From Bacillota bacterium (GTDB lineage Bacteria > Armatimonadota > HRBIN16): a stretch of DNA of 64,000 nucleotides. The notes below the pieces were generated by a model. That model ran no database searches, had not been told where the DNA came from, and saw only the letters and a list, made by a program, of their open reading frames with translations. Position 1 is the first letter of the stretch; the number at the start of each line of letters is the position of its first letter. Below, piece by piece: positions 27,643-44,419 of the stretch. Where the stretch lies: NCBI GenBank assembly GCA_023511455.1, contig JAIMBJ010000012.1, positions 1 to 64,000 on the forward strand, written 5' to 3'. The translations under genes were made by a program, and so were the position numbers.

Positions 27643-29514
27643 TCACCTCTGCCTTAACAGGTAACTGACGCTCGGCGATGCTTGCTCTGCACCGAAGTTG
27701 CCACGCACCTCAATGCGTATCTCCTCGGCATTCTCATCGGGCGTGATGCGGAAAGACAACACCTGCCTGCCCATCGCCCGCACCTGCACTGCCTGCTGCG
27801 GAGGTTGCGCGGAAGCACCGGAGAGCGACAGGCTCACGGTGCCGCTCACTGCTCTCCCCCCGAAGTGATATACCTCCACGGTGTATTCGAAGCTCTCGCC
27901 CGGGCGGAAGAGATAGCAGTCGCGTCCCTTATCGACAGGCAGATTGGTGTAGCCAACTACCACCACCCGCGACGGCTTGTTCGTGGGCAGGCGTCCGACA
28001 CGAGGCGGCGCGGGCTGGACACTTTTCTCTATCGCTTTCCCCACGTTCACCAGATACACGACCTCCGGTGTCAGCTGAACCTGCACCCTGCCATCCTCCA
28101 CCTTCAGCGTGCTCTCCGCACCGAAAATGTTGGCAACACGCACTGTACGCCTGTCGGTAGGCACGCGGATGGTGACCGGCTTCTCCGACCATGCGACCAG
28201 CACATTGCCACGCGGGGTGGAGAAAAGATGCGCCGAAGCCCCCTCCACACCGGTGGGGTACTCCCCCATATACCGGCTTATTCCAAGCAGTTGGGCGCAC
28301 GCGGAGAGAGCTACCAGCGAAGGATAGGGGCTCATATCGGGGCGCAACGCACCGAACTGCATGCCGCTCTCCAGATAGTCAGGTAGCACGAAGAAGAAGT
28401 GTTTGTCGTTGCCCGCTGCGAGCGACATGACCACAGATACGGGCACAAACTGGCACTGTCTGCGCTGGTTCTCCTCGCTGAGAATGCGTTTGTTCGCGCC
28501 CTCGGTGCCCGGCAAACGGATGCCCGCCTCCGTTAACCAGGCGAGACGGTCATCCAGACCGTGTTCGGCAAGCAGTTGCCGGTATGCCTGCAGCGTACGG
28601 GGATAGTTGGAGGGCAGGTCGTAGATATGCCAGTTAAAGATGTCGAAGTACTCCCCGATGCCGTTTTCGAACAGATGGCGTGCAAACGCCTGTACCCCGA
28701 CACAGAGAGAACCCTGCAGCACAGGCGCATTCGGATTGCCGTCTTTCAACCCCAGATAAGCCGCCTTGAGCAACCCTGCGTAGCGGTCACTGAGATGCCG
28801 CCAGAAATCGATATCCGGCTCGTTCCAGACTTCCCATGCCTGAATCTGTGCCGCAAAGTGGCTGGCTGCCTCCCGCCCGAAACGGTATACCGTGCGCAGA
28901 TCATCCGGGCAGTGCGCGGAAGGGTTATCGGGATGCGACCACGCCGGGGAATCATGCCATATCTGGTAAACATGCACCCCCTGCTGCGCCAGCACATCCG
29001 CCACATACTGGTAATGCTTCCAGTCCAGCTGTCGCTTATCAGGTGCGACGTGTCCCCATGAGATACGCTCCCGCACCCAGGGGATGCCCGCCGTACGCAC
29101 GATATGCGCAAACGTACGCCAGCGTTCTTCGCCATGAACCAGCCAGGCACTGGCAGCATCGGCGCAGACCCGCCCCTCACGCGGTAATGGGGCACCTTTT
29201 CTATCCATGACTACCCCCAGCGCAACCTCTGCTGCATTACCTTCCCCATCGTCACAGCGAAGGATATAGTAGCCCGGAGGTTGTGCTTTGATTCGGATGT
29301 TCGCGTTGCCGTGGCGAACCGGTACCTTCCCCTCAGCAACAGGTCGCCCCCAGTAGTCCATCAGACGATAATGGACAGTAGCCTTCGCTTGTGTCACGGT
29401 AAAGTGCAGCTGTTTGCCGGTAACAAACAGGTTGCCCGGAGCCGTAGATTTGACTTCCATCGCCCAAACCGCTCCAGTCATCCAGATAAGAACAAAAATA
29501 CCTGCGACGTGCAT
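27643..29514 (-). CDS. Secreted clan GH-A-like glycoside hydrolase
   Basis: A 623-residue exported protein with a signal peptide (MHVAGIFVLIWMTGAVWAME) preceded by GGAGG. An N-terminal beta-sandwich (to about 110) is followed by a TIM barrel with VWNEPDIDF, whose Glu232 fits the acid/base, and LTEAG, whose Glu329 fits the nucleophile. Both lie at strand ends expected for clan GH-A, as in GH39 and GH5 relatives. A third domain (about 390-623) is beta-rich and may be carbohydrate-binding. It probably degrades an extracellular beta-glycan; the exact family cannot be decided by eye. Confidence 0.75.
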   Translation of the reverse strand: MHVAGIFVLIWMTGAVWAMEVKSTAPGNLFVTGKQLHFTVTQAKATVHYRLMDYWGRPVAEGKVPVRHGNANIRIKAQPPGYYILRCDDGEGNAAEVALGVVMDRKGAPLPREGRVCADAASAWLVHGEERWRTFAHIVRTAGIPWVRERISWGHVAPDKRQLDWKHYQYVADVLAQQGVHVYQIWHDSPAWSHPDNPSAHCPDDLRTVYRFGREAASHFAAQIQAWEVWNEPDIDFWRHLSDRYAGLLKAAYLGLKDGNPNAPVLQGSLCVGVQAFARHLFENGIGEYFDIFNWHIYDLPSNYPRTLQAYRQLLAEHGLDDRLAWLTEAGIRLPGTEGANKRILSEENQRRQCQFVPVSVVMSLAAGNDKHFFFVLPDYLESGMQFGALRPDMSPYPSLVALSACAQLLGISRYMGEYPTGVEGASAHLFSTPRGNVLVAWSEKPVTIRVPTDRRTVRVANIFGAESTLKVEDGRVQVQLTPEVVYLVNVGKAIEKSVQPAPPRVGRLPTNKPSRVVVVGYTNLPVDKGRDCYLFRPGESFEYTVEVYHFGGRAVSGTVSLSLSGASAQPPQQAVQVRAMGRQVLSFRITPDENAEEIRIEVRGNFGAEQASPSVSYLLRQR

Positions 29515-29733: not shown

Positions 29734-31605
29734 CTACTCCTGAGCAGGCTGTTCCGTTGCTGGCGTGCTCTCCTTCTGCGCGGAGGCAACTACCTGCTGC
29801 ACCAGGTCGTTCACCTGTTGCGCCACCTCGGGCGAGACCGCCTTCCCCGTCAGGCTCTGTACCAGGCTCAGCACCTGATTCGCCAGCTGGGGCACTACAC
29901 TGCCGTCTCCGCTGAGCGGAGAACCTTTCATCAGCCCGTCCACGAACGCGCCGACGCCCATGCCCTTGAAGTACTGTTGCACCATGTTCGCCATCATGCC
30001 CGGATCGCCGAAGATGACGAACTGTCCGTTGCTCATGAACCGTCCGATGGACTCGGCAATCGCCTTCTGGATGTCGCGGCTGGCTTCGATCTGCAGCTTG
30101 GTCAGTTCGAAGCGCAGGGCGGCGTCGCTGAAGGTCTGCTTGTTCTCCAGCGCCTGTCGCTCTACTTCGACCTGCGCCTTCTGCACCTCCACCTGCTCGC
30201 GGGCGATGTTGACATCTACCATCTTCAACGCCTGCTCGCCCTGAGCCACCAGCTCTTTCGCACGGGCTTCGGCGTCCGCCTTGCGCAGGATGGCTTGCGC
30301 CTCCAGCTCGGCGGCTTTCTGCTGCGCCTCGGCACGCTTCACCTCGGCATACGCCTGCACCTCCGCCTCCACCTGCCGCTTCAGGCGCTCCTGCTCGATC
30401 TGCTGCTTGGCGGCGATAAGCTTGGTCTGTGCCTCGCGCTCTGCCTGTGCGGTCACCTGCACGGTAATGATGTCCTGGTTCGCCCGCTCGCGCTCGGCTT
30501 GCGCCTGAAGGGCTTCCTCCTCCGCCTGCGCCCGCTCTTTCTCTTTGTTGGCAACCGCGATTTGCTTCTCCCGCTCGGCGACCTCTATCGCCTTCAGCCG
30601 CTCGATGTCGGTCTGGCGCAGCTCCTGCTCCTTGAGCACCAGCGCCTTGTCGCGCTCGATGGCGGTGGTTTGAACGGCAAGGTCGCGCTGGATTTCTGCC
30701 TCTTTCACCTGGCGTTCCTGCTCGATCTGGTAGGTTTGTGCCTCCCGCTGTTTCTCCGCGCGGATTTTGGCGACCTGCGTGGCTTGCTCCGCTTCTGCCT
30801 CCGCCTGCTGGCGCTCCAGCTCCAGCACCTCCTTGCGGGTCTGCACGTTCTTGAGGGTCATCTCGCGCTGCGCATCGCGCTCGATACGGTTGCGCTCTAC
30901 CAGTGCGGACTGGGTGATTTCAGTAATCTTCTTCTTGCCCTGCGCGTCGAAGATGTTGTTATCCGACAGCAGCTCCTGCGAGGTCTGGTCTAAACGCGAG
31001 ATGGTAACCGACTCCAGCGTCAAGCCGTTTTGCTGCAGGTCCGCCACCACCAGATTGTGCACCGCGCTCGCAAAGGCATCCCGCTGCGCGTGAATCTCCA
31101 CCAGGTCCTTGGTGGCGGCGACGCTGCGCAGAGCGGAGACCAGCTTCTCGAACACCAGCGACGACACCGAATGCGCATCCACCGACTTCTCGCCCAGCGA
31201 CCGCGCGGCGTTCAGCACGTCCTCTTTGATGGCACGCACCTTGATGTAGAACTCCGCCTTCACGTCCACGCGCAGGTTGTCCTTGGTGATGAGCGCATCG
31301 GGTCCCTTGCGCTCCACCTCCAGCTTCATGGTCTCCAGAGAGACGGGCACGATTTTGTGCACCACGGGAAACACCAGCGAGCCGCCGTCAATCAGCACAT
31401 GTGTGCCTCCCCAACCTGTGCGCACATAGGCGAGGTTCGCCGATGGCTTGAGGTAAAAACGCTTTATCGCCAGCGCGAGCGCGGAGAAAAACATCACCAC
31501 CACGCCCACGATGGACGAAACCAGCGTTTGCGTCCACTCCCAGCCCAGGTAGAAGGGCGCGAAAACGAGTAACGCTCCAATCAGCACAAACAGCAGCGCA
31601 GTCAT
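29734..31605 (-). CDS. Flotillin/SPFH-domain protein (YqiK-like)
   Basis: A 623-residue membrane-scaffold protein. An N-terminal membrane hairpin (MTALLFVLIGALLVFAPFYL and a second hydrophobic stretch to about 48) precedes an SPFH/band-7 domain (about 60-210). A long Glu/Ala/Lys-rich coiled coil (about 240-500) follows, and the C-terminus is Gln- and Gly-rich. This layout is that of bacterial flotillins that organise functional membrane microdomains. It overlaps the upstream OB-fold membrane gene by four bases (ATGA), the YqiJ-YqiK gene pair known from Escherichia coli. Confidence 0.85.
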   Translation of the reverse strand: MTALLFVLIGALLVFAPFYLGWEWTQTLVSSIVGVVVMFFSALALAIKRFYLKPSANLAYVRTGWGGTHVLIDGGSLVFPVVHKIVPVSLETMKLEVERKGPDALITKDNLRVDVKAEFYIKVRAIKEDVLNAARSLGEKSVDAHSVSSLVFEKLVSALRSVAATKDLVEIHAQRDAFASAVHNLVVADLQQNGLTLESVTISRLDQTSQELLSDNNIFDAQGKKKITEITQSALVERNRIERDAQREMTLKNVQTRKEVLELERQQAEAEAEQATQVAKIRAEKQREAQTYQIEQERQVKEAEIQRDLAVQTTAIERDKALVLKEQELRQTDIERLKAIEVAEREKQIAVANKEKERAQAEEEALQAQAERERANQDIITVQVTAQAEREAQTKLIAAKQQIEQERLKRQVEAEVQAYAEVKRAEAQQKAAELEAQAILRKADAEARAKELVAQGEQALKMVDVNIAREQVEVQKAQVEVERQALENKQTFSDAALRFELTKLQIEASRDIQKAIAESIGRFMSNGQFVIFGDPGMMANMVQQYFKGMGVGAFVDGLMKGSPLSGDGSVVPQLANQVLSLVQSLTGKAVSPEVAQQVNDLVQQVVASAQKESTPATEQPAQE

Positions 31606-32603: not shown

Positions 32604-32646
32604 GTTAATTGCCTGAGAAACACACAGGTCAAAGGAGGTGAGAGCT

Positions 32647-33147
32647 ATGGCACGCCGTGAAGTGACGCTGGCTCGTCGTGAGACCAACGGTGGCATCCGC
32701 CGCTGGGATCCGTTTGCGGAGATGGAGCGCCTGCATCGCGAGATGGACCGCTGGTTCGACCGGCTGTTCCCGTTCAGCCCGCTCACCCGCTGGAGTTCGG
32801 ACATAGAAGTGGGCTTTGAACCTGCCGTGGATATCTACGAGACCAATGAGGAGCTGGTGGTGTTCGCCACCTTGCCCGGCGTGGAGATGAAAGACATCCA
32901 CGTGGAGGCGACACCGGACACGCTGATACTCCGCGGTGAGCGCAAGCCACTCATCAGCGATGAGAACGTGACGGTACACTACCGCAGCGCGTGGGGCGGG
33001 CATGGCACCTTCGAGGCGCGCTATGACCTGCCGGTCGAGATTAACCCGAACAAGGTGAAGGCGACGCTCCGCAACGGTATCCTGGAGGTGCGGTTGCCCA
33101 AAGTGGAGTCCGCGAAAGCGAAAGCGGTGAAGGTTCAGGTCGAATAG
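32647..33147 (+). CDS. Small heat-shock protein Hsp20
   Basis: A 166-residue ATP-independent chaperone that holds unfolded proteins in large oligomers. The alpha-crystallin domain spans about residues 55-160, with the hallmark VEINPNKVKATLRNGILEVRLPK containing the A-x-x-x-N-G-I-L motif. The N-terminal arm holds RRWDPFAEMERLHREMDRWF. ATG 32647 was chosen over an in-frame GTG at 32638 because AAGGAGGTGA (32632-32641) then lies at ideal distance. A consensus promoter and inverted repeat precede it. Confidence 0.92.
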   Translation: MARREVTLARRETNGGIRRWDPFAEMERLHREMDRWFDRLFPFSPLTRWSSDIEVGFEPAVDIYETNEELVVFATLPGVEMKDIHVEATPDTLILRGERKPLISDENVTVHYRSAWGGHGTFEARYDLPVEINPNKVKATLRNGILEVRLPKVESAKAKAVKVQVE

Positions 33148-33578: not shown

Positions 33579-36500
33579 CTACTGCTCCCCGACAAAGCCG
33601 AAATGCCTGACGAGGATGCCAAAGTCGAACAATGTGACCTCCAAGTCGCCGTCCAGGTCGGCGTCCCAGTTCCAGTTTTCGTCACCCGCTACGCTGCCAA
33701 ACGCCAGGAGCAACATACCAAAATCCTGTAGGGTCACCGTATTGTCCCCGTCGACATCGCCATTGATCTGGGAGAAATTGAGGACAACATCACCGGTGAC
33801 GCGAACCCGTTGATGCTTATCGCGCAGCCAGTGGGAGCCTTTGACAGCGACATCGTAGACGCCGTCCAAATTCGTACCGATAATGTATTCGGATTGGCTG
33901 TTGAGGAAGAGGTTATGCGTCTCTCTGGCGGACCTGCTGTCCGGGTCGCGCAGTTCCAAAGTAACCTGTGCCATCTCAGGATTGCCGACGAAGTCGCCCA
34001 GCAGCACCTTGCCGCGCAGGACGGTTCGTGCTACCCGAAGGGTAGCGTTTCCTGTGGAGGGTTGTCGTGATTCTGCGCCTTCGAAGACCACATCGATCCA
34101 ACGGATGCCGAGTGGCATGTGGGGAGGGATACTATATGCAACTTGTGCGTTCCCCTGCGCATCCGTTTCCACTGTTCCCACGACTGTACCGTCAACCTTG
34201 AAGTGTAGCGTGAGTCCCTGCGGTGCTGAAACCCAACCGCCAACGTCCAGCTCTTTCAGCGAAGCGGTCAGAATCACCGTCGTGCCCCGCCGAGCTATGA
34301 CGTCTTCCACGATGACCTCCGTCTTGGCTGTCAAATTCAAGTGGGCAGTTGCTTCGGAGGCTTGATACTCAGAGTCTCCCTCAAACACGACCCGGTACTC
34401 GCGCTCACCGAGTAGTGTCACCGTCCACGGCAGGGTCGCTACGCCCGCCGCATTGGTAACCGCGGAACCGACCGGGTTGCCATCCACAAGGAACCGCACC
34501 GTTTTGTTGGCAAGCGGTGATGAGTCGGAGGCTCGAACGAGCGTCGCCCGCAACAGGGCGGTGCTGCCGCGCTCAGCAGAGAGGTTGTCGCCTGAGAGGC
34601 GGGTTCTAATTCGTAGGGACACGGGATAGATGGGACTGTATCCCCAATTGCCTGCGACGTCCTGCACCCTGAACTGGATTCGGTTCCTGTCGCCAGCACG
34701 GTGAAACGGCACGTTTTGGGCTACTACCACCTCCCATTCGAGGCTCCCCTCCTCTCCGGAGAGGCTCGTCGGTTTCCATTGACTCCATGTTGTCCCACCA
34801 TCGGTAGAGAAGCGGTACCATGCGTTTGCCGAGGGCGACAAGCCAGAAAGAAGGTCTCTTACCGCAACTTGACAGGTTGGTGCGAGCTCTTGGTTGCCTT
34901 CGTTCACTGTAAAGGCCTGCCAATCGTTAGGTGGGGTGCCGTCGATGATGACGGTGCGACGTACTTCTGCCTCGCCGCCGTTCGTGGACTTAACCTTCAA
35001 CAGGATAGTGCCGAGCCCCTCCCTATCCCCACGCAACCTTCTTGCCAACTTCCGGGTGAAACCCGCTGGAATACTACCGAGCGGGACGTTTAATGCGGAG
35101 CTAAGATTAAAACGCTCTTGGTCACCGTTCGGAGCATACCGTATCACCTCGAGGTCACTGACGTAACTCAGAAGAGAACCACGCGGTGGGTCTTCCAACA
35201 TCGTAGCCGACACTCCAGAGACGACGTAGGAGTCCGGTCGCACTGAACCCATCACCTCAAACTCAGTGTTGGGCTGCACAGCCACGGGCGCAGTCAGGGT
35301 CAATCTCAGGTTGGGCTCGGTAGGTCCAAAAACGGCACGCACCGTCACCGCCCATGCCTGACTACCAGAAAACCACGAATGGCTGTAGGAGTGTACCTTG
35401 ATGCGATATTTGCCTGCTCGCGCGTTGCGGATGGTGATGAACTCCACGTTGTCTACACGGGAGGCTGACCACCAGCCGCCGTTCGGCCCTTCAGTAAACG
35501 GTTCAGCATCGAGGTATAAGTCGAGGTCGTTCACCAGAGCCTGGCTGGCCCATGCAGAAGCTGGTTCATCGGGGTATACCAGCGCAATGCGCAGCAGACT
35601 CGCAGGCTGGGAGAGGTCAAAATCCATGGTCTTTAGCGAGCCGGTGCGTCTGTTTGTCCCCCACCATACTTTCAAGAAGCCGTCTCCCTCGAAATGGCAC
35701 AAAAAGCCGTCGACTTTACCTCTTCCTGCCGCGTGGAGGTCGTAGCCGAGGTCGAGGGCGTTTGCGATAATCATGCTTTTAATGACCCAGGCTGGCGGGT
35801 TCGAGGCACCGCCGTCCGGCCGACGATACGCTGCCATCAACCCCACTGCGAGCCCAGCCACATGGGGGGCGGCAAAGGATGTTCCCTTGACAGGGAAGTA
35901 TTCTCGACGGTTCCAACGGGCAGGTGCCATAATCCAGTGGCTTGGCGCGACCACATCGGGTTTCACCCGACCATCCCCCGTAGGGCCTCGTGATGATGAC
36001 TCAACTACTTTGTCTACGTTGTATCCCTCATCATACACGCCACCCACTGTCAGCGCCCCTTTGGCATCGCCTGGGATACCGATTGTTCCTTCTCCTTGTT
36101 TGCCCTCGTTACCTGCGGCAGCCACGACCAAGATGTCTTCGCGAAACAATCTGTCGACCTGTCGCGATAGCGCATCCGTTCCTCGTGCGTACCGAGTTGG
36201 CGCGCCCCCGCTCAAGTTCACCACATCCCGTTTGGCAACGCTCCTCCACCTTTGCCGATCGAACCATCCCCGCATGTCACTGAGCGCGTCCGAAACGCTC
36301 GACCCGACACTGGTCCCTCCCTCAAACGTGTTCACGAAGACCTTCGCCAGCACGATGTCATCCGCTGCCAAGGCGCTTACACCTGAGGCAGTGCCCCGAT
36401 ATCGACGGTCTGCAGCACCTGCGCCGAGCAGAATACCCAACACAGCAGTGCCGTGACCGTTACCGTCTATCAGTGCATTGCCCCTGCTATCCGTATAGTC

Positions 36501-37568
36501 GCGACCGATAACGCCGTCCCTGATATGGGCAAAGTCGTCGTGTCGTATGAAGAAACCTGAGTCAAGCACCCCGATCTTCACCGACTGACCGTGCAATGGG
36601 CGGCCATCTTTGCCAAAGTACCACAGCAGGTCAGCATCGATAGCGGGTTGCGACTCGAAGTCCGCTGGCTTGCAGGCGTGTACTGGCTCGATAAACAGCA
36701 CGGCGTCCCAGTCGAGCAGCCGGTTTATCGTGGCGGCATCAGCCAGCATCGGAAGGATGGCTAAGTCGGGGTCATACCTGCCTGTCTGGTCGGCGATAGC
36801 CATCAGGGCGTCGCGCGCTGCCTCATCGTGTCCGAAGAGGGATACGAAAACCCATCTGCGCTCCGCCGAGCCGCTGCCAACGAACGTCCATAGTTCGGGG
36901 TGCAGTTTCTGAAGCGGATAAGGCTGACCAACCCAGCGAACCTGCGGATGGGCAGCTACCGTGCTTAACTGCGACACGGGAACACGCGCCTGATACGCTG
37001 TGTACGGATAAAAGCCGAGCAGCTGCACGCCGTGCTGCTCGAGCCATTCACGCAAAGCATCGTCCAGCCTGCCATCCAGCAGGATGAAGCAGTAAACCGT
37101 TGGCTGCGCGTCTGTGCTTTGAGTGCGTAGTTGGGCTGCTCGGTGTTGCGCCAGCCGCAGCAGCAACGGTTGCAGCTTCTCGCCTTCTGACGGTACATAA
37201 TCGCCCATCCCGAAGGCAATCGCCACCTTCTCGCCCTTGCTACCAAACGGCAAAACATACGTTCCAGCGTCGGTTACTCCCTCCTCACCTAGCATCTGTG
37301 CCTCCTGAAGGTTCGGCTCAGCTATGGAGGTCGCCTGATTGGCTAACTCAGGGCGGGTATGGGCAATCGAGGTTTCGTAGCGCAGAGATGGCTTCTGTTC
37401 TGGAGGCACTGGTGGTTGCGTTGGCGTGCTGACCGATACCCGACTGGGCGCTCTCACCGACTTACCCTTGTTCGGGCTGGATGGCACGGTCTGCGCCACG
37501 ACGGAACCCCACAGCAAAAGTGTGGTAATCCCTGTCAGCAGAGCAAAGCGTTTCAGAGTGGATAGCAT
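33579..37568 (-). CDS. Secreted subtilisin-like serine protease with Ig-like repeats and dockerin-like tail
   Basis: A 1329-residue exported S8 peptidase. A signal peptide (to about residue 25) and a proline-rich linker precede a propeptide-like region (about 60-320). The catalytic triad is Asp336 (IGVLDSGFF), His372 (GNGHGTAVLG) and Ser564 (GTSFAAPHVAG), with oxyanion Asn487 (AAAGNEG). A P-domain-like beta region and several Ig-like domains with VDGxxVGxxxTxxxG follow. The C-terminus carries a carboxypeptidase-regulatory-like unit with SHWLR and two dockerin-like calcium loops, DVDGDNTVTLQD and DLDGDLEVTLFD. It is probably an extracellular or surface-attached protease. The start ATG has AGGAG upstream, a promoter at 37775-37803 and an intrinsic terminator. 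Confidence 0.9.
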   Translation of the reverse strand: MLSTLKRFALLTGITTLLLWGSVVAQTVPSSPNKGKSVRAPSRVSVSTPTQPPVPPEQKPSLRYETSIAHTRPELANQATSIAEPNLQEAQMLGEEGVTDAGTYVLPFGSKGEKVAIAFGMGDYVPSEGEKLQPLLLRLAQHRAAQLRTQSTDAQPTVYCFILLDGRLDDALREWLEQHGVQLLGFYPYTAYQARVPVSQLSTVAAHPQVRWVGQPYPLQKLHPELWTFVGSGSAERRWVFVSLFGHDEAARDALMAIADQTGRYDPDLAILPMLADAATINRLLDWDAVLFIEPVHACKPADFESQPAIDADLLWYFGKDGRPLHGQSVKIGVLDSGFFIRHDDFAHIRDGVIGRDYTDSRGNALIDGNGHGTAVLGILLGAGAADRRYRGTASGVSALAADDIVLAKVFVNTFEGGTSVGSSVSDALSDMRGWFDRQRWRSVAKRDVVNLSGGAPTRYARGTDALSRQVDRLFREDILVVAAAGNEGKQGEGTIGIPGDAKGALTVGGVYDEGYNVDKVVESSSRGPTGDGRVKPDVVAPSHWIMAPARWNRREYFPVKGTSFAAPHVAGLAVGLMAAYRRPDGGASNPPAWVIKSMIIANALDLGYDLHAAGRGKVDGFLCHFEGDGFLKVWWGTNRRTGSLKTMDFDLSQPASLLRIALVYPDEPASAWASQALVNDLDLYLDAEPFTEGPNGGWWSASRVDNVEFITIRNARAGKYRIKVHSYSHSWFSGSQAWAVTVRAVFGPTEPNLRLTLTAPVAVQPNTEFEVMGSVRPDSYVVSGVSATMLEDPPRGSLLSYVSDLEVIRYAPNGDQERFNLSSALNVPLGSIPAGFTRKLARRLRGDREGLGTILLKVKSTNGGEAEVRRTVIIDGTPPNDWQAFTVNEGNQELAPTCQVAVRDLLSGLSPSANAWYRFSTDGGTTWSQWKPTSLSGEEGSLEWEVVVAQNVPFHRAGDRNRIQFRVQDVAGNWGYSPIYPVSLRIRTRLSGDNLSAERGSTALLRATLVRASDSSPLANKTVRFLVDGNPVGSAVTNAAGVATLPWTVTLLGEREYRVVFEGDSEYQASEATAHLNLTAKTEVIVEDVIARRGTTVILTASLKELDVGGWVSAPQGLTLHFKVDGTVVGTVETDAQGNAQVAYSIPPHMPLGIRWIDVVFEGAESRQPSTGNATLRVARTVLRGKVLLGDFVGNPEMAQVTLELRDPDSRSARETHNLFLNSQSEYIIGTNLDGVYDVAVKGSHWLRDKHQRVRVTGDVVLNFSQINGDVDGDNTVTLQDFGMLLLAFGSVAGDENWNWDADLDGDLEVTLFDFGILVRHFGFVGEQ

Positions 37569-37664
37569 CTCGTACCTCTCCTTTCCGAGCAGGTTTATGT
37601 TTTGGGAAGCTACGCAGTTGTAAGACTCTTTGCGAGCTTGGGGGATAAAGCAACATCCGCTAAC

Positions 37665-37732
37665 ATGCTGGGCGAAGCGAAGAATCTGATTTACGGCTCA
37701 GGATGCTTTGCTTGCGCTCAGCATATCCCATG
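37665..37732. repeat. Degenerate palindromic repeat, GCGAAGCGAAGAATCTGA core
   Basis: The left arm TGCTGGGCGAAGCGAAG and the right arm, whose complement reads TGCTGAGCGCAAGCAAAG, form an imperfect inverted repeat. The core CGAAGAATCTGA is shared with the element at 29611-29665. Confidence 0.55.
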
Positions 37733-37774
37733 ACTCGCCAGATGTCCCTCGCCACTAAGTAACTACTGTTGTAT

Positions 37775-37803
37775 AGTTTATCACGACGAAACATTTTTGT
37801 CAA
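37775..37803 (-). promoter_or_regulatory. Promoter of the subtilase gene
   Basis: On the minus strand consensus TTGACA (37803-37798) and TAAACT (37780-37775) are exactly 17 bp apart. The untranslated leader would be about 200 nt and contains the degenerate palindrome. Confidence 0.6.
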
Positions 37804-37956
37804 GTGTTCCTGGGGTGAAAAGCCCGCTCAACGGTGCCCCAGCGACTGAAAGTCACGGGCAGAGCAGGTTTCGTTTTAGGTCGCCCCCAACGTTTAGTTG
37901 GTATAAAACCCCTTTCTGGGAAGCCCCCCAGTGTTCCGCATGACGTTATTCCTGCG

Positions 37957-38035
37957 AACCCACCTTGTGGGGCGGTGGAGCGTAAGGCTCCGTGTCCTTC
38001 GGCACGCGAGGAGACGGTCCGCCCCAAAGTGGGTT
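37957..38035. ncRNA. Possible structured RNA element (multibranch fold)
   Basis: AACCCAC (37957-37963) pairs with GTGGGTT (38029-38035) and GGGGCGG (37969-37975) with CCGCCCC (38019-38025). Inside, GGAGC/GCTCC (37977-37991) is a perfect hairpin and a second hairpin GTG-CC/GG-CAC follows. The fold is compact at about 79 nt. It could be a conserved RNA, or a remnant of a repeat family. No known family matched by eye. Confidence 0.35.
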
Positions 38036-38049
38036 GAGGAAGCTACGAA

Positions 38050-38078
38050 CACTGGGCGGGGCAACGCCCCGCCCGGTG
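38050..38078 (-). terminator. Stem-loop at the end of the BNR-propeller gene
   Basis: GGGCGGGGC (38054-38062) and GCCCCGCCC (38066-38074) with an AAC loop, extendable to CAC/GTG pairs at the base. It lies 10 bp past the stop and has nearly the same stem as the terminator at 33536-33566, but there is no clear T run. Confidence 0.55.
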
Positions 38079-38087
38079 CCAGCGAAA

Positions 38088-41000
38088 CTACTCATCGCCG
38101 ATTTTTCCGAAGTTCTTGACGAGGATGCCGAAGTCGAACAGGGTGACCTCCTCATCGCCGTCGAGGTCGGCATTGGGGTTCCAGTTCTTGTCGTTGGGCC
38201 CAGAGCCGAAAGCGGCAACGAGCATACCGAAATCGAACAGCGTGACCTCGTTATCCTCGTCGACGTCTCCGTTGACGAGGCTGAAAGCCACCTGTGCCGT
38301 GCCGGGCAGTTTAACGTGAACCCGCTGCCGCAGCCAGTGCGTTACCTTCACCAGAAGGTCTGCGCTGCCGGTCAGCCTCAGCCGGAACGCCCCCTTGCCG
38401 TCCAGCACTTCCTTGAGCCGCTCCAGCTTGCCGTCGCGGTCAATCGCCACATCCGCGGGCAAGTTCATCACGGGACCGACGTAGTCGCGCAGGTTGACGA
38501 GCGCTTCCACTTCGACGTATCCACTCAGGGTCGCATATGCTGCGGAACTGACGTAAGTAGAGTCTCCGTCGAACGCCGCCGACATCGGCAGGTCTCCGAG
38601 ATGTCGCCCACTATACGAGACAGACGCTTCGCCTTCGGCATCGGTGGTCGCCGTGCCCACCTCGGTGCCACCTACCGAGAAGCGCAGCAGTTTGCCCGAA
38701 ATCGGTCGTCCATCATCCTGTCGGGTCAGGCGCGCTTTCAGCAACGCGGTCGAGCCGTAGGGCACCGACTGGTCTCGGATGATGACAACCGTATACGCAC
38801 GCGAGACCGAAAGGATGCCCGTGCCCGAGGAGGGGTTGAAGGCGGAGTCGCCATCGAAGGTCGCGGTGATGGTGCGATTTCCCAGCGCAGCGTCCAGCGG
38901 AATCGTGTAGGCGAGCGTCGCGGAGCCATCCGAGCCGGTCACCGCACTGCCTACGGTCCTATCGTCTACCTCAAACTGCAGTCGCTTGCCTGCGACGCCT
39001 GCCCCCGAGTCGGTGCGTTGTAAGGTTGCCCTGAGGTTGGCGATGCCCCCCAGTTGCCCCGGACGCCATGGTACTTCGATTCGTGTGGTTACGAAAGCGG
39101 CGGTAGGCAGAGGCATCCGCCCGATACCGCGTCCGTAGGTGCCCACGTAAAGATGGCTGGTGGTTGCGTTGGCGCGCAGGTGCAGACACGGCGTGCTGGG
39201 CAACCCCAGCCCCAGCCTTGCCCAGTTGCGACCGAGGTCGGTGGTGACGAACACCCCCGTGTCGGTAGCGGCAATCAGCATGTTGGGCGCAATCGGGTTG
39301 ACTATCAGGAAGTTCACGGGCGTGTCGGGCAGGTTGCCCGAGATGTCCGTCCACGTTCTGCCAAGATCGGTGCTTCGAACGACACGTTGTGCGCCAAAGC
39401 CCATGAACCCCACATACACCGTGCCTGCATTATTGGGGTCTACTGTCAGACCACCGACTGCTCGCCGAGGCAGCCCATCCGTGCGCCTCGTCCATGTGGC
39501 TCCGCCGTCTGTGCTGACAAACACCACGCCGTCGGTAGACCCCGTGTAGATGACGTTCGAATCGGACGGGGCGACAGCAATCACGTTCAGCACACCGCCG
39601 TCGGTCAAATCGCCGCTAATGCGCGACCACGTCCGTCCGTCGTCGGTGGAACGGTACAGGAAGTTGGTGCCCAGATAGAACCTGCCGGGTGTGCGGGTGT
39701 CGTTGACCAGCGGGGCGCACCACAACCCTTGATGGTCGCCGCTGGCGTTCAGCACAGGATTCGGACTCCAGGTTCGCCCTCCATCGGTGGAACGCCAGAC
39801 GACGGCTTGTTGGGTCTGCCCCAGCGCGATACTGGGGTCGGTGCGCTTATACGAAGCCCACATACCATCCCCGCCCAGCGTGACATCGAAGGTGGGCGAG
39901 TCGGTGCGCAGCTGCGTGCCGTTGTCCTGCGACCCCGCCAGCAGTTGGTTCGCATCGGTGGGATGCACATCGAACGCGTAGAACTCCATCGTGCCTCTGC
40001 CGTTGTTTAAAGGGGTCAGCGTCGTCCCACGATTGGCAGAGTAGAACAGTCCCCCGTCGCTGCCGATGTAGATTCGCGTCGAGTCGAACGGGTCGAACGC
40101 CAGCGCGTGCTGGTCGACGTGCCCCACGGTGTCTTGCGGGTTGATTGTCGTCCACGTTTGGCCTCCGTCGGTGGTGCGCCACAGGTCGACCGCGCCCGCG
40201 TAGGCGATGTTGGGGTTGTTCGGGTCGACGCGCATCACAAGGTTATACCATGTTTGCCCGGTGCGGCCGGTTGGGGTGGTCACCTGCGTCCAGCTGGTGC
40301 CGCCGTTGGTCGTTCTCCACACGCTATGGATGCCGTCGCTGACGCCAGGAACGAACTGTCTGGAAAAAATGACCCAGACCACGTTGGGGTTGCTGCGGCA
40401 GATGTCCAGTTCAATGCGCCCAATGCTCGTGCCGTTGGGCAACGCGCTGATACGTGTCCACGTCGTGCCGCCGTCGGTGGAACGATAGACGCCGTTGCCA
40501 CCAGCGCCCACAAAATTGCCTAACGCCGCCCACAGGATATTGGAATTGGTGGGGTGCATCCGTAGCGCTGACGCCAAGCCGCTCAGCCTGAGGGTGAAGT
40601 CGCTGCCCCCATTGGTGGTGATGTAGATTCCCCGATTCGCGCTGACAATCCACTTGTTGCGGTTGGTCGGGTCGATGACAATCTCATTGATGCGCTGCCC
40701 GTCGAAGACGCTGCTGCCGAAAAGCCTCCATGTATTGCCGCCGTCGGTCGAGCGGTAGATGCCCACTCCGCCCAGCGTCCGAACCGCGAAGTACTCCTCA
40801 CCTGTCCCCAGATAGATGATGTTGGGGTCTACTGGGTCGAGGGTCAAGCAGCCCACATATTGCGCCGCGAGGAAGTCGGTGAGGTTGCGCCAGGTGCTGC
40901 CGCCGTCGTGACTGCGCCACACCCCTCCTTTGGCAATACCGATGTAGATGATGTTGCGGTTGGTCGGGTGTACGGCAATGGCGTTGACGCGGGCGAGCCA

Positions 41001-41270
41001 GTTCTGCCTTGTGCTGACGGGTCCGTGATACTCCCAGTTCAGCGCCTGCGCCTGCAGCCCGTTCGCTTGATAGATGGGCATCTGTTGTGCCTGTTCGTAC
41101 GCCCGCAGCCAAGCCCCCGCAGGCACATCCTTGAACGGAAAGGCGCGCAGACTGTAGAACCACTCCAGTCGTTTCCATGGTTTGGACAAGCCCCATGCGT
41201 CCTGCTCCTGTGCAAGGGCAACACACGAGAGGCTCATCCACAGGGCGACTAGCAAGAAGAGCCGCTTCAT
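38088..41270 (-). CDS. Secreted BNR/sortilin-type beta-propeller protein with dockerin-like tail
   Basis: A 1060-residue exported protein. ATG 41270 was chosen because a signal peptide (MKRLFLLVALWMSLSCVALAQ) follows and GGAGGG precedes it; the open frame continues without coding character. From about 60 to 750 it holds many Asp-box repeats such as VWRSHDGGSTWRNL, IYRSTDGGNTWRLF and VWRTTNGGTSWTQV, forming one or two seven-bladed propellers like VPS10/sortilin and xyloglucanase-type proteins. Two Ig-like domains follow. The C-terminus has NLRDYVG, THWLRQ and two calcium loops, DVDEDNEVTLFD and DLDGDEEVTLFD. No catalytic residues were recognised. It is probably a binding or adhesive surface protein. 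Confidence 0.85.
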   Translation of the reverse strand: MKRLFLLVALWMSLSCVALAQEQDAWGLSKPWKRLEWFYSLRAFPFKDVPAGAWLRAYEQAQQMPIYQANGLQAQALNWEYHGPVSTRQNWLARVNAIAVHPTNRNIIYIGIAKGGVWRSHDGGSTWRNLTDFLAAQYVGCLTLDPVDPNIIYLGTGEEYFAVRTLGGVGIYRSTDGGNTWRLFGSSVFDGQRINEIVIDPTNRNKWIVSANRGIYITTNGGSDFTLRLSGLASALRMHPTNSNILWAALGNFVGAGGNGVYRSTDGGTTWTRISALPNGTSIGRIELDICRSNPNVVWVIFSRQFVPGVSDGIHSVWRTTNGGTSWTQVTTPTGRTGQTWYNLVMRVDPNNPNIAYAGAVDLWRTTDGGQTWTTINPQDTVGHVDQHALAFDPFDSTRIYIGSDGGLFYSANRGTTLTPLNNGRGTMEFYAFDVHPTDANQLLAGSQDNGTQLRTDSPTFDVTLGGDGMWASYKRTDPSIALGQTQQAVVWRSTDGGRTWSPNPVLNASGDHQGLWCAPLVNDTRTPGRFYLGTNFLYRSTDDGRTWSRISGDLTDGGVLNVIAVAPSDSNVIYTGSTDGVVFVSTDGGATWTRRTDGLPRRAVGGLTVDPNNAGTVYVGFMGFGAQRVVRSTDLGRTWTDISGNLPDTPVNFLIVNPIAPNMLIAATDTGVFVTTDLGRNWARLGLGLPSTPCLHLRANATTSHLYVGTYGRGIGRMPLPTAAFVTTRIEVPWRPGQLGGIANLRATLQRTDSGAGVAGKRLQFEVDDRTVGSAVTGSDGSATLAYTIPLDAALGNRTITATFDGDSAFNPSSGTGILSVSRAYTVVIIRDQSVPYGSTALLKARLTRQDDGRPISGKLLRFSVGGTEVGTATTDAEGEASVSYSGRHLGDLPMSAAFDGDSTYVSSAAYATLSGYVEVEALVNLRDYVGPVMNLPADVAIDRDGKLERLKEVLDGKGAFRLRLTGSADLLVKVTHWLRQRVHVKLPGTAQVAFSLVNGDVDEDNEVTLFDFGMLVAAFGSGPNDKNWNPNADLDGDEEVTLFDFGILVKNFGKIGDE

Positions 41271-41623
41271 ATGAAATCCCTCCCATGTTTGAATTGAGCT
41301 TGGGTTGGCGGAGCAGGTTGGTGGCATCCGAGGGGCAAATGTGGTATGATTTCGGCTCAACTCATTCCACGACATGGTGCCATGCGCCACTGGACGTGCC
41401 TGCTTCGTCACCATATTTAGTATAGCAAAACACATCACAGCGGTCAAACTGTTCTGTGTAAAGAGATTGTTTTTCCCACTCGTTACCGCGGGGACGATTC
41501 CGCAAAGCCACAGGCGCACGCTGACCTTTGTTCTTCTACGAAAACCTCCCTCCCACTGTTGACCGATCTCAGGACAATACGGTACAATGCCGTGTACATT
41601 CACCAAGAAAGGAGAGGAAGAAG
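41271..41623. other. Divergent intergenic region
   Basis: About 350 bp between two secreted-protein genes on opposite strands. It contains the plus-strand promoter at 41559-41588. A convincing minus-strand promoter for the BNR-propeller gene was not found. No gene is supported. Confidence 0.5.
41559..41588 (+). promoter_or_regulatory. Sigma-70 type promoter of the single-dockerin protein
   Basis: TTGACC (41559-41564) and TACAAT (41583-41588) are 18 bp apart, followed 36 bp later by ATG 41624 with AAAGGAGAGG before it. The sequence is nearly the same as the promoter at 21390-21419. Confidence 0.65.
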
Positions 41624-42814
41624 ATGAAAGCGTTTGTCTGTACGGTGCTGCTAGGCACCGCCATGGCAGGCGCGTGGGCACAGGCGCTGCTCACTCCGTC
41701 GCGCCCTCAACCGAAGCATCCGGCATTGCTGGGTGCGGTAAAGCGGATAACCCTGTCTCCGGTGGGGTTGCGCCCCCAGAACTCCGCGCAGTCGGTTTCG
41801 CTGCCACTGTACGATGCCACCTCGCCTGAACAGATTGCCTTCGACGGAACCAGTGCCTATCTAGATACCTGGGCAGTGGGCACTATCCTGCAGGAGCAGA
41901 TTCCTCTGCTGGGACCGGCGCGGCTCGACACACTGGAAATCCTGTACGTTGGGGGAGGGGCAGCAGGCAGCACAGCGAACATGACAGTGCGGGTCTACGG
42001 CTGCCGTTCTGGCTTTGTTGGCGATGACCCCGTCTCACAAGGTTTCCCACTACTCTATTCGCTCGTGAACCAGCCCATCCCCAACGATGGCAGCACCTAC
42101 CTGCTGAGCCTCGATTTGGGTGGAACGGTTTATAACGCTGGCGTGGACGCTCAGGGCAAACCGTTTGCGCACGACCTGCTGGTGCAAATCAGCTTCACAG
42201 GCACGACGACACCGCCGTTGCTCTTCATTGCCAACGGGGCGAACTCGCTGGGATTGCGCAACGACGGGGGACTGGGACAGACCCTGCCCTCGCTCTACCC
42301 GCTAGGGGCAGGCAAGTTCTGGGACGACGTGGGCAACCGCTTCCATATGGAGCGCTACTTCACTGGTACCAGCGATAACGTGTGGCGCGAGGGAGCGAAC
42401 GCCTTCTGGTGGGGAGGAAGCCCGCTGGGCAACTGGTCTATCAGCGTGTTCGGCTCGTACAACTTCGTGGGTGTCGTGTCTAACAACGCCAATGTGGACA
42501 TGACCGAAGCGAAAGTGCAGATAAACGGGCATCCCGTGACCGTGCCGCTGCTTTCGCTGCCTGCAGAAACGCTTGCGCCCCAACAGAACGCCCGAGTGTT
42601 CACCCTGCCGTTGACACCAAATGTGGAGCACGACGTGCGTATCGTGATGGGGCCGCCCTATCTGGTGCGCGCCAAAACGGTAACCGCCTCTTCTCCGGCG
42701 ACGCCGGTGGTGGAGGATTTCTTCCTCATCTCCGGCGACCTGGACGGGGATAACGAAGTGACCCTGTTCGATTTTGGTATCCTCGTGCAGAGCTTTGGGG
42801 AAGTTGGAGACTGA
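41624..42814 (+). CDS. Secreted protein with one dockerin-like loop
   Basis: A 396-residue exported protein of unknown function. A signal peptide (MKAFVCTVLLGTAMAGAWAQ) follows ATG 41624, which has a purine-rich GGAGAGG upstream. The body is beta-rich with no recognised catalytic motif; segments include DGTSAYLDTWAVGT and FWDDVGNRFHMERYF. It ends GDLDGDNEVTLFDFGILVQSF, a single copy of the dockerin-like loop that occurs twice in its neighbours. Its shared tail and location suggest it belongs to the same surface set. Confidence 0.75.
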   Translation: MKAFVCTVLLGTAMAGAWAQALLTPSRPQPKHPALLGAVKRITLSPVGLRPQNSAQSVSLPLYDATSPEQIAFDGTSAYLDTWAVGTILQEQIPLLGPARLDTLEILYVGGGAAGSTANMTVRVYGCRSGFVGDDPVSQGFPLLYSLVNQPIPNDGSTYLLSLDLGGTVYNAGVDAQGKPFAHDLLVQISFTGTTTPPLLFIANGANSLGLRNDGGLGQTLPSLYPLGAGKFWDDVGNRFHMERYFTGTSDNVWREGANAFWWGGSPLGNWSISVFGSYNFVGVVSNNANVDMTEAKVQINGHPVTVPLLSLPAETLAPQQNARVFTLPLTPNVEHDVRIVMGPPYLVRAKTVTASSPATPVVEDFFLISGDLDGDNEVTLFDFGILVQSFGEVGD

Positions 42815-42822
42815 GCACAAGA

Positions 42823-42847
42823 ACGGGCGGGCGTGACGCCCGCCCGT
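42823..42847. terminator. Bidirectional stem-loop between convergent dockerin-tailed genes
   Basis: ACGGGCGGGCG (42823-42833) and CGCCCGCCCGT (42837-42847) form an 11-bp perfect stem with a TGA loop, right between the convergent gene ends at 42814 and 42860. Confidence 0.6.
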
Positions 42848-42859
42848 CTCATTCAGGGA

Positions 42860-44419
42860 TTACTCATCCCCCAGCAAGCCGAAGTTTCGCACCAGCACGC
42901 CGAAGTCCAACAGAGTGACCTCATCGTCTCCGTCTAGGTCGGCGTTGGGGTTCCAGTTGCTATCGCCCGGCATGGAACCAAACGCCGCCACCAGCGCGCC
43001 GAAGTCGAGCAACGTGACCTCATTATCGCCGTCGATGTCGCCGTTGATGAGGCTGAAGTTCAGCGTGACCGGCGCGGTCAGGTTCACGTTCGGGATGACC
43101 TGGCGCAGCCAGTGCGACGCCTTCGCCGCGACGTCAAACGTGCCATACAGCGAGGTGACCAGACGATAGGCACCGGTGCTGTCCAAATCCACATTGTAGG
43201 TCTCCAGCGGGGTGGTCTCGCCCGGGTTGCGGATTTCTATCGTCACCGGCACAGTACTGACGTCGCCGCCGAAGTCTCTCAATACCACGCTGCCCCCTAC
43301 TTCAATCGCTGGCAAGACCTCGAGTACATCGAGGCGGTCAATCGTGCCCGCGGGCGAAGCCGGCACATGCCCACTGACCACCAGCAGCAACAGTCTGCCA
43401 TCGGGGGTGATAAAGTGGGTGGCGTTAATCAGGTTGTGCCGGAAGGCGCTGACGCTCACACCGTCCAGCGTCTCTCCACTGCCATCCCATTCGCCCAGCG
43501 GGTTGCCGTTGGGGTCGGCAAGATACAGCTTGTGGGTGGTGGGGTCTATCGTCGGCGTACGCAGGTTGTAGGCGATGAAATCGGTGAGCGTGGGGTACAC
43601 TGCGGACACGGGCACATAATTCACCGTGCATTGCTGGAAGTTGCCCGCGTCAAACGGGACGATGCGCACGAGGGTGCCATAGCTGTCCACGCCGGTTCGC
43701 ACTGCCTTGAAGATGCCGTCGTTGACGTCGCCGGAGGCACGGTGAATGTATACATCACCGTTGGGCGCGAAGGCGATGTCGCGCAGGAAGTCTGGCGCGA
43801 AGTTGTTGCTGTTGCCAAGTAGCGTTCCCGCTGTGAACGACACACGGCGAATCGTGCGCGTGCCCAGCGACCCTACCGCCAGCGCGCTGCCCGTGCCAGC
43901 GTATCCTGGATCTACCGCGATAGCTTCGTAGCGCGTAACGCCGATTTCAGCCGGCGACAAAATCCCGTCGACTGCCCACAACGCATCGACGTTCCCAAAG
44001 GTGTCTAAGCGGACAATTGCCGTCTCGGGGCTGGTACCGTGTCCAAGACCGAAGCCTGCATACAGCACTCCGTTGTGGTACACCAGCCGCGAATCGCGTG
44101 AGACACCCGCCGCCGTCCACGACAGGATGCGACTGACGCCTGCACCATACGTCAGGTTGCCGCTGGGAAGGTTCAGCACATCATCGATGCGCACGATACC
44201 GACAGTTCCATTGCCGCTTGATGCCCGGAACCCAATCACGTAGGCGTTTACTCCGTCGAAAGCGACGTCGATAGCACCCTCGCCACAACTGCTTGGGGTG
44301 CCATCAAAGATACCAGAAATGTTGAAGCTGCGCAGGAGCTTGAGCTGCACCTGTGCCTGTGCGGACAGCGCAAGGCAGACGATACCTAGCAGCGCCGCGA
44401 GAAGCGCCAACCGTCTCAT
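42860..44419 (-). CDS. Secreted beta-propeller-like protein with dockerin-like tail
   Basis: A 519-residue exported protein. Signal peptide MRRLALLAALLGIVCLALSAQA; AGGAGG lies before the ATG. The central part (about 30-390) reads like a repeated SMP-30/NHL-type propeller, with IDVAFDGVNAYVIGF, RDIAFAPNGDVYIHR and LYLADPNGNPLGEW. The C-terminal module has VVLRDFGGD, SHWLRQ and two calcium loops, DIDGDNEVTLLD and DLDGDDEVTLLD. No catalytic site was recognised. It is transcribed from a good promoter. Confidence 0.8.
   Translation of the reverse strand: MRRLALLAALLGIVCLALSAQAQVQLKLLRSFNISGIFDGTPSSCGEGAIDVAFDGVNAYVIGFRASSGNGTVGIVRIDDVLNLPSGNLTYGAGVSRILSWTAAGVSRDSRLVYHNGVLYAGFGLGHGTSPETAIVRLDTFGNVDALWAVDGILSPAEIGVTRYEAIAVDPGYAGTGSALAVGSLGTRTIRRVSFTAGTLLGNSNNFAPDFLRDIAFAPNGDVYIHRASGDVNDGIFKAVRTGVDSYGTLVRIVPFDAGNFQQCTVNYVPVSAVYPTLTDFIAYNLRTPTIDPTTHKLYLADPNGNPLGEWDGSGETLDGVSVSAFRHNLINATHFITPDGRLLLLVVSGHVPASPAGTIDRLDVLEVLPAIEVGGSVVLRDFGGDVSTVPVTIEIRNPGETTPLETYNVDLDSTGAYRLVTSLYGTFDVAAKASHWLRQVIPNVNLTAPVTLNFSLINGDIDGDNEVTLLDFGALVAAFGSMPGDSNWNPNADLDGDDEVTLLDFGVLVRNFGLLGDE

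Follow-up and report, generated by a model that had tools for sequence, protein, structure and literature searches.

The locus considered here raises the question of why unrelated exported proteins encoded side by side should end in the same sequence, and of what that shared end might hold on to. The window (the whole stretch of 64,000 nucleotides that was analysed) belongs to the metagenome-assembled genome of an uncultured member of the Armatimonadota from a hot spring, which is 3.85 Mb in size and 99% complete. The four neighbouring ORFs for which a preliminary description had claimed a common tail are all present in the window, and their features are as follows.

33579..37568, minus strand: exported S8 subtilase with two Big_3_5 Ig-like domains and a C-terminal X-dockerin (Pfam Peptidase_S8 2e-34, Big_3_5 2e-16; signal-peptide-like start)
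33582..33761, minus strand: type II dockerin of the subtilase, two F-hand repeats (PF00404 and tail profile)
33762..34031, minus strand: X-module of the subtilase, KGSHWLR (X profile and alignment A2)
38088..41270, minus strand: exported BNR/Sortilin-type propeller with two Big_3_5 domains and a C-terminal X-dockerin (Sortilin-Vps10 5e-42, Dockerin_1 1e-5; signal peptide)
38091..38270, minus strand: type II dockerin of the BNR protein (PF00404 and tail profile)
38271..38525, minus strand: X-module of the BNR protein, VTHWLR (X profile and alignment A2)
41624..42814, plus strand: exported protein with no Pfam domain and a half dockerin at its end, second repeat only (signal-peptide-like start; half tail)
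42728..42811, plus strand: half dockerin, single F-hand repeat (tail profile positions 32-59, E 1.8e-11)
42860..44419, minus strand: exported protein with a C-terminal X-dockerin, body unclassified and propeller-like by eye only (Dockerin_1 5.5e-5; signal-peptide-like start)
42863..43042, minus strand: type II dockerin of the 42860-44419 protein (PF00404 and tail profile; AlphaFold dyad model with pLDDT 98)
43043..43315, minus strand: X-module of the 42860-44419 protein, KASHWLR (X profile alignment; AlphaFold model; Foldseek)

Doubled F-hand loops, the FGSxxxDxNWNxxADLDGD linker that joins them and a preceding unit with an (S/T)HWLR motif occur together in the three ORFs on the minus strand (33579-37568, 38088-41270 and 42860-44419), and the ORF on the plus strand (41624-42814) has the second loop only. 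The loop motif that had been proposed, D-x-D-G-D-x-E-V-T-L-x-D, describes the loops in general without being exact in every copy, since loop 1 of 33579-37568 reads DVDGDNTVTLQD and loop 1 of 38088-41270 reads DVDEDNEVTLFD; the Asp residues at loop positions 1, 3, 5 and 12 are, as had been stated, invariant in the tail alignment (A1). The real start of the second gene lies near 41270, where it was placed from the signal peptide. The tail had also been said to be common to a protease, a BNR propeller and an NHL-like propeller, which holds for the S8 protease and the BNR protein, but the NHL-like propeller of 42860-44419 has no Pfam support.

The tail had been called both dockerin-like and novel-looking. 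It is indeed recognised by Pfam Dockerin_1 (PF00404), which lies above its curated cut-off in two of the four window proteins in a whole-protein Pfam scan, and it is for that reason not a new domain. The (S/T)HWLR unit, previously taken to be regulatory-like, is an X-module, and tail and unit together are a type II X-module-dockerin dyad. When a 151-residue profile built from 110 dyads of the phylum Armatimonadota was compared with all PDB sequences, the best matches were type II X-dockerin chains from Clostridium thermocellum and Acetivibrio cellulolyticus (4wi0, 4u3s, 2b59, 3kcp, 5k39 and 5g5d; E 1e-16 to 2e-12), with alignments that cover both modules. The AlphaFold model of the window dyad at 42863-43315 has a pLDDT of 98 and a pTM of 0.89, and the ten best Foldseek matches of this model in the PDB are all type II X-dockerins, with TM scores of about 0.75-0.78. 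X precedes dockerin in 158 of the 181 ORFs with an X or dockerin match. The dyads share their module order and fold with the type II X-dockerins of scaffoldins (C. thermocellum CipA/ScaA and CipB, A. cellulolyticus ScaA; 2b59, 5k39, 5m0y, 5g5d, 4u3s, 4wi0), and also a dockerin that shows no gap in the profile alignment to that of CipA, a short helix in the linker, and hydrophobic recognition positions.

A genome-wide search established that the tail is not confined to the cluster in the window. Dockerin_1 gives 41 matches in the source genome, 40 of which lie above the cut-off alone and the remaining one only together with its neighbours in frame, and a tail profile built from 35 tails gives 50 matches. 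The latter count is a lower bound, because three of the matches lie at the very start of contigs (C65:6-113, C38:6-113 and C39:2-76) and a fourth is truncated where its contig ends (C53:16150-16293); assembly is probably interrupted at the repeated tail, which leads to too low a copy number. Of the 35 full C-terminal tails, 34 have exactly 60 residues without gaps, and in alignment A1 the tails end in FGxxGDE. Their mean pairwise amino-acid identity is 78%, and yet the same codon is used at identical residues with a frequency of only 0.52, close to the 0.43 expected from codon use. Since the amino acids are alike while the synonymous codons are near random, it is selection on the protein that keeps the tails alike, and recent gene copying was rejected as the cause of their identity. 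A second half-dockerin protein (L024:338-1309) was found besides 41624-42814 in the window; it has the second half of the dockerin only, preceded by an X-like or unclear unit, contains DUF7901 and has as its neighbour a subtilase whose tail is complete.

The tail is likewise abundant in all ten genomes of the genus (tail-profile search, best 22 matches per genome), whose named records are metagenome-assembled genomes or bins (HRbin16, Ch118, RSWS16 and others). In the phylum as a whole Dockerin_1 is present in 116 of 291 Armatimonadota genomes, and X-dockerin dyads with the same module order also occur in other families.

The sharing of the tail among unrelated exported proteins, first noted in the window, holds genome-wide for the roughly 50 tails. 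Pfam identifies the cargo in the source genome as S8 subtilases, BNR/Sortilin, LVIVD, NHL, WD40 and PQQ propellers, beta-helix, PA14 and legume-like lectin proteins, one GHL10 protein, which is the only glycoside-hydrolase-like cargo among about 40 scanned, and many proteins without a known domain. In most tagged proteins the N-terminus resembles a signal peptide that ends in an AxAQ-like site. The source genome also encodes five or six proteins whose dockerin lies at the mature N-terminus, right behind the signal peptide, and is followed by an X-like unit; this class is also present in further genomes of the genus. The corresponding loci (L037, L011 on the minus strand, L009, L021 and the N-terminal part of L035) encode proteins of 690-740 aa. 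The lead-in strand LxITLLNGD is kept in these forms, and the X profile matches C-terminal to the dockerin with an E of 5e-8 in L035 and weakly in the others, which suggests, at the level of sequence, a circularly permuted X-dockerin dyad. The AlphaFold model of the N-terminal form is of low confidence (pLDDT 74), with the dockerin half alone recognised.

If the tail were a signal for secretion or sorting at the C-terminus, recognised by a transport machine in the manner of PEP-CTERM or of a type IX tail, then the fixed distance of 26 residues between the last loop and the end of most copies would be readily understood, and the genome does have a PEP-CTERM/exosortase system, with 25 PEP-CTERM matches and two exosortases (C7:111475-112242 and C6:68051-68803); eight other genomes of the genus also have two, and exosortase is found in nine of the ten. 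The N-terminal dockerins in the source genome and its relatives mostly refute such a signal by their position. The preliminary description had itself named PEP-CTERM as a sorting domain that might explain the tail; the tail has no PEP motif, no transmembrane segment and no basic end, and its fold is that of a known binding module. PEP-CTERM is a separate C-terminal signal, distinct from the dockerin tail. The position independence of the tag thus argues for a binding module, and a sorting function is very improbable.

The residues that are conserved in the tail point in the same direction. Binding of the ScaC2 cohesin by CipB is dominated by Asn146-Leu147-Phe148 of the second repeat, the Gly that follows the helix Phe is also among the dominant contacts, and Gly/Asn positions set which cohesin CipB and ScaA bind (PMC5141474). 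The counterparts in the tail are Thr-Leu-Phe and Phe-Gly, in both repeats, and over the 110 dyads the Leu is conserved in 99 of 110 in each repeat, the Phe in 85-86 and the Gly in 105-107. The putative recognition face is hydrophobic and symmetric over both repeats, as expected for dual-mode docking. The dyad might alternatively bind no receptor at all and serve only to cap exported proteins or make them dimerise in hot water, with calcium stabilising it, and this would suit the very rigid model of the dyad, the strict retention of the calcium loops, and the existence of half dockerins (41624-42814 in the window and L024:338-1309). The Leu-Phe and Phe-Gly pairs, the NW of the linker and the GDE end all lie off the calcium loops, however, and their conservation among about 50 unrelated proteins seems to go beyond what stability would need; moreover, the closest relatives of the dyad all act in docking. 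A cap without a receptor is therefore judged quite unlikely. The earlier suggestion that the tail is an attachment or assembly module fits the identity of the dyad and the diversity of its cargo, docking being the function that homology and conservation would predict.

The expected partner of a dockerin is not apparent in these genomes. The preliminary description reported no cohesin in the window, and profile searches extend this result to the whole genus: PF00963 has no match at E<=1 in the source genome and none at E<=0.01 in any of the ten genus genomes, and a profile built from 20 Armatimonadota cohesins gives weak matches only, which span at most 36 columns, are chance-like and fall in seemingly unrelated proteins. 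Among the candidates that were rejected as cohesins, L202-L206 show only a weak 36-column match, in a protein whose C-terminus looks like FlgD by eye, and L207 is similar to NusA. Across the phylum, cohesins are present in 36 of 291 genomes and are lacking in 39 of the 42 dockerin-rich ones, which makes loss through assembly unlikely, and the presence of dockerin is not associated with that of cohesin (Fisher p 0.37). Judged from these profiles, a classical cellulosome is ruled out, the genus being without cohesin like most dockerin-rich Armatimonadota. It could still be that the partner is a true cohesin that is very divergent or unassembled, or one supplied by neighbouring mat bacteria, and that the system is an ordinary non-cellulosomal cohesin-dockerin complex, given that both repeats keep the residues that face the cohesin and that cohesins do exist in part of the phylum. 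The absence of PF00963 matches, the chance-like results of the Armatimonadota profile and the scarcity of cohesins among dockerin-rich genomes speak against such a partner, which is considered unlikely.

If the partner is not a recognisable cohesin, then it may be sought among the genes that accompany X-dockerin genes. Several PEP-CTERM genes adjoin them; a general rule to this effect was rejected, because the neighbours belong to several unrelated families, and one family alone, here called A5, recurs across families of the phylum. A5 is a previously unnamed PEP-CTERM protein family of about 175 residues, with predicted export and a PEP-CTERM end in most members. It occurs in 22 of the 291 genomes, in one copy each, and every one of these genomes has dockerins as well (naive Fisher p 8e-10; like the other genome association counts, it makes no correction for phylogeny). 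The copy in the source genome is at G000:C40:10899-11417. In nine genomes (G086, G088, G090, G092, G097, G140, G148, G149 and G150) A5 adjoins or overlaps an X-dockerin gene on the same strand, the interval being -4 to 64 bp and either gene coming first; in G240, G241 and G220 A5 and X-dockerin are in one ORF, with A5 directly after the dockerin in the chain. Within the source genus A5 is never directly beside X-dockerin genes and was not detected in five of the ten genomes (G181, G182, G185, G186 and G187), nor was it detected in most other dockerin-rich genomes of the 291-genome set. The genus of G240-G244, two genomes of which have the fusion, also has small cohesin ORFs of about 160-190 aa (L161, L163, L167, L169 and L171).

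A5 has no Pfam cohesin match. Its profile aligns with that of cohesin in hhalign with a score of 30.3 over 37 columns, clear of the maximum of 16 for shuffled profiles but not better than the 26-30 reached by Ig-like cargo domain controls, so that homology to cohesin is not established. The X-dockerin neighbours of A5 are mostly, not always, subtilases, and A5 could accordingly be an inhibitor, chaperone or substrate of the S8 protease rather than a partner of the X-dockerin. This is doubtful, since some of the X-dockerin proteins coupled to A5 have no detected S8 domain (L246 and L247) and A5 follows the dockerin directly in the three single-chain proteins. By genome context A5 is the best receptor candidate; that it actually is the receptor of the X-dockerin is a tentative proposal, with the odds somewhat against it.

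The reading preferred here, with a probability of roughly 0.7, is that the type II X-dockerin dyad serves as a general calcium-dependent docking tag for a surface receptor other than a recognisable cohesin, with A5 as the best candidate for that receptor. The tagged proteins would be exported through Sec, their two F-hand loops would fold around calcium once the proteins have left the cytoplasm, and the rigid X-dockerin unit would then bind the receptor, presumably at the surface, so that about 50 different proteins could share one attachment chemistry. The candidate receptor A5 would be anchored by exosortase, the PEP-CTERM/exosortase system present in the same genomes being its presumed anchor. 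A wider proposal, a shade more speculative than the assignment of A5 as receptor, is that Armatimonadota may have replaced cohesin altogether: an exosortase-anchored, non-cohesin A5 would display the X-dockerin proteins, half of the cellulosome would have been joined to a new partner, relatives would encode the two as a coupled gene pair, and the present genus would have extended the arrangement to about 50 cargo proteins.

The module is known and its setting new: the type II X-dockerin serves as a general tag where no cohesin was found. In cellulosomes the X-dockerin is found on the primary scaffoldin, which it fastens to the cell surface, whereas here it is found on about 50 diverse exported proteins; no cohesin was found here, the loops are more canonical, and the binding face appears symmetric across the repeats. 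The presence of dockerins on many secreted proteins recalls the cellulosome, but neither cohesin nor scaffoldin was found, and the cargo consists mostly of proteases and propellers, not of enzymes for plant polysaccharides. Non-cellulosomal dockerins in general are already known, and a dockerin-dependent surface complex with peptidases, the planctosome, has been proposed for a bacterium without evidence of cellulose use (PMC6461901); that system has cohesins, and none were found here. In the library of papers that was covered, nothing on dockerin together with Armatimonadetes/Armatimonadota or with PEP-CTERM seems to describe such tags. Dockerin counts have been taken as a sign of cellulosomes, in hot-spring metagenomes among others (PMC6624737), and the genus described here combines about 50 dockerins in a genome with no cohesin found. 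If A5 is the receptor, then one of the best-studied docking modules would have a new partner, from thermophiles, with an evident use in protein display; even if it is not, the partner of cohesin-free dockerins can now be tested with a named candidate pair.

Some further ORFs were noted in the window. Two adjoining ORFs on the minus strand, at 27643-29514 and 29734-31605, are of equal length (623 aa), the second being flotillin-like by eye, and the ORF at 32638-33147 on the plus strand is Hsp20-like by eye.
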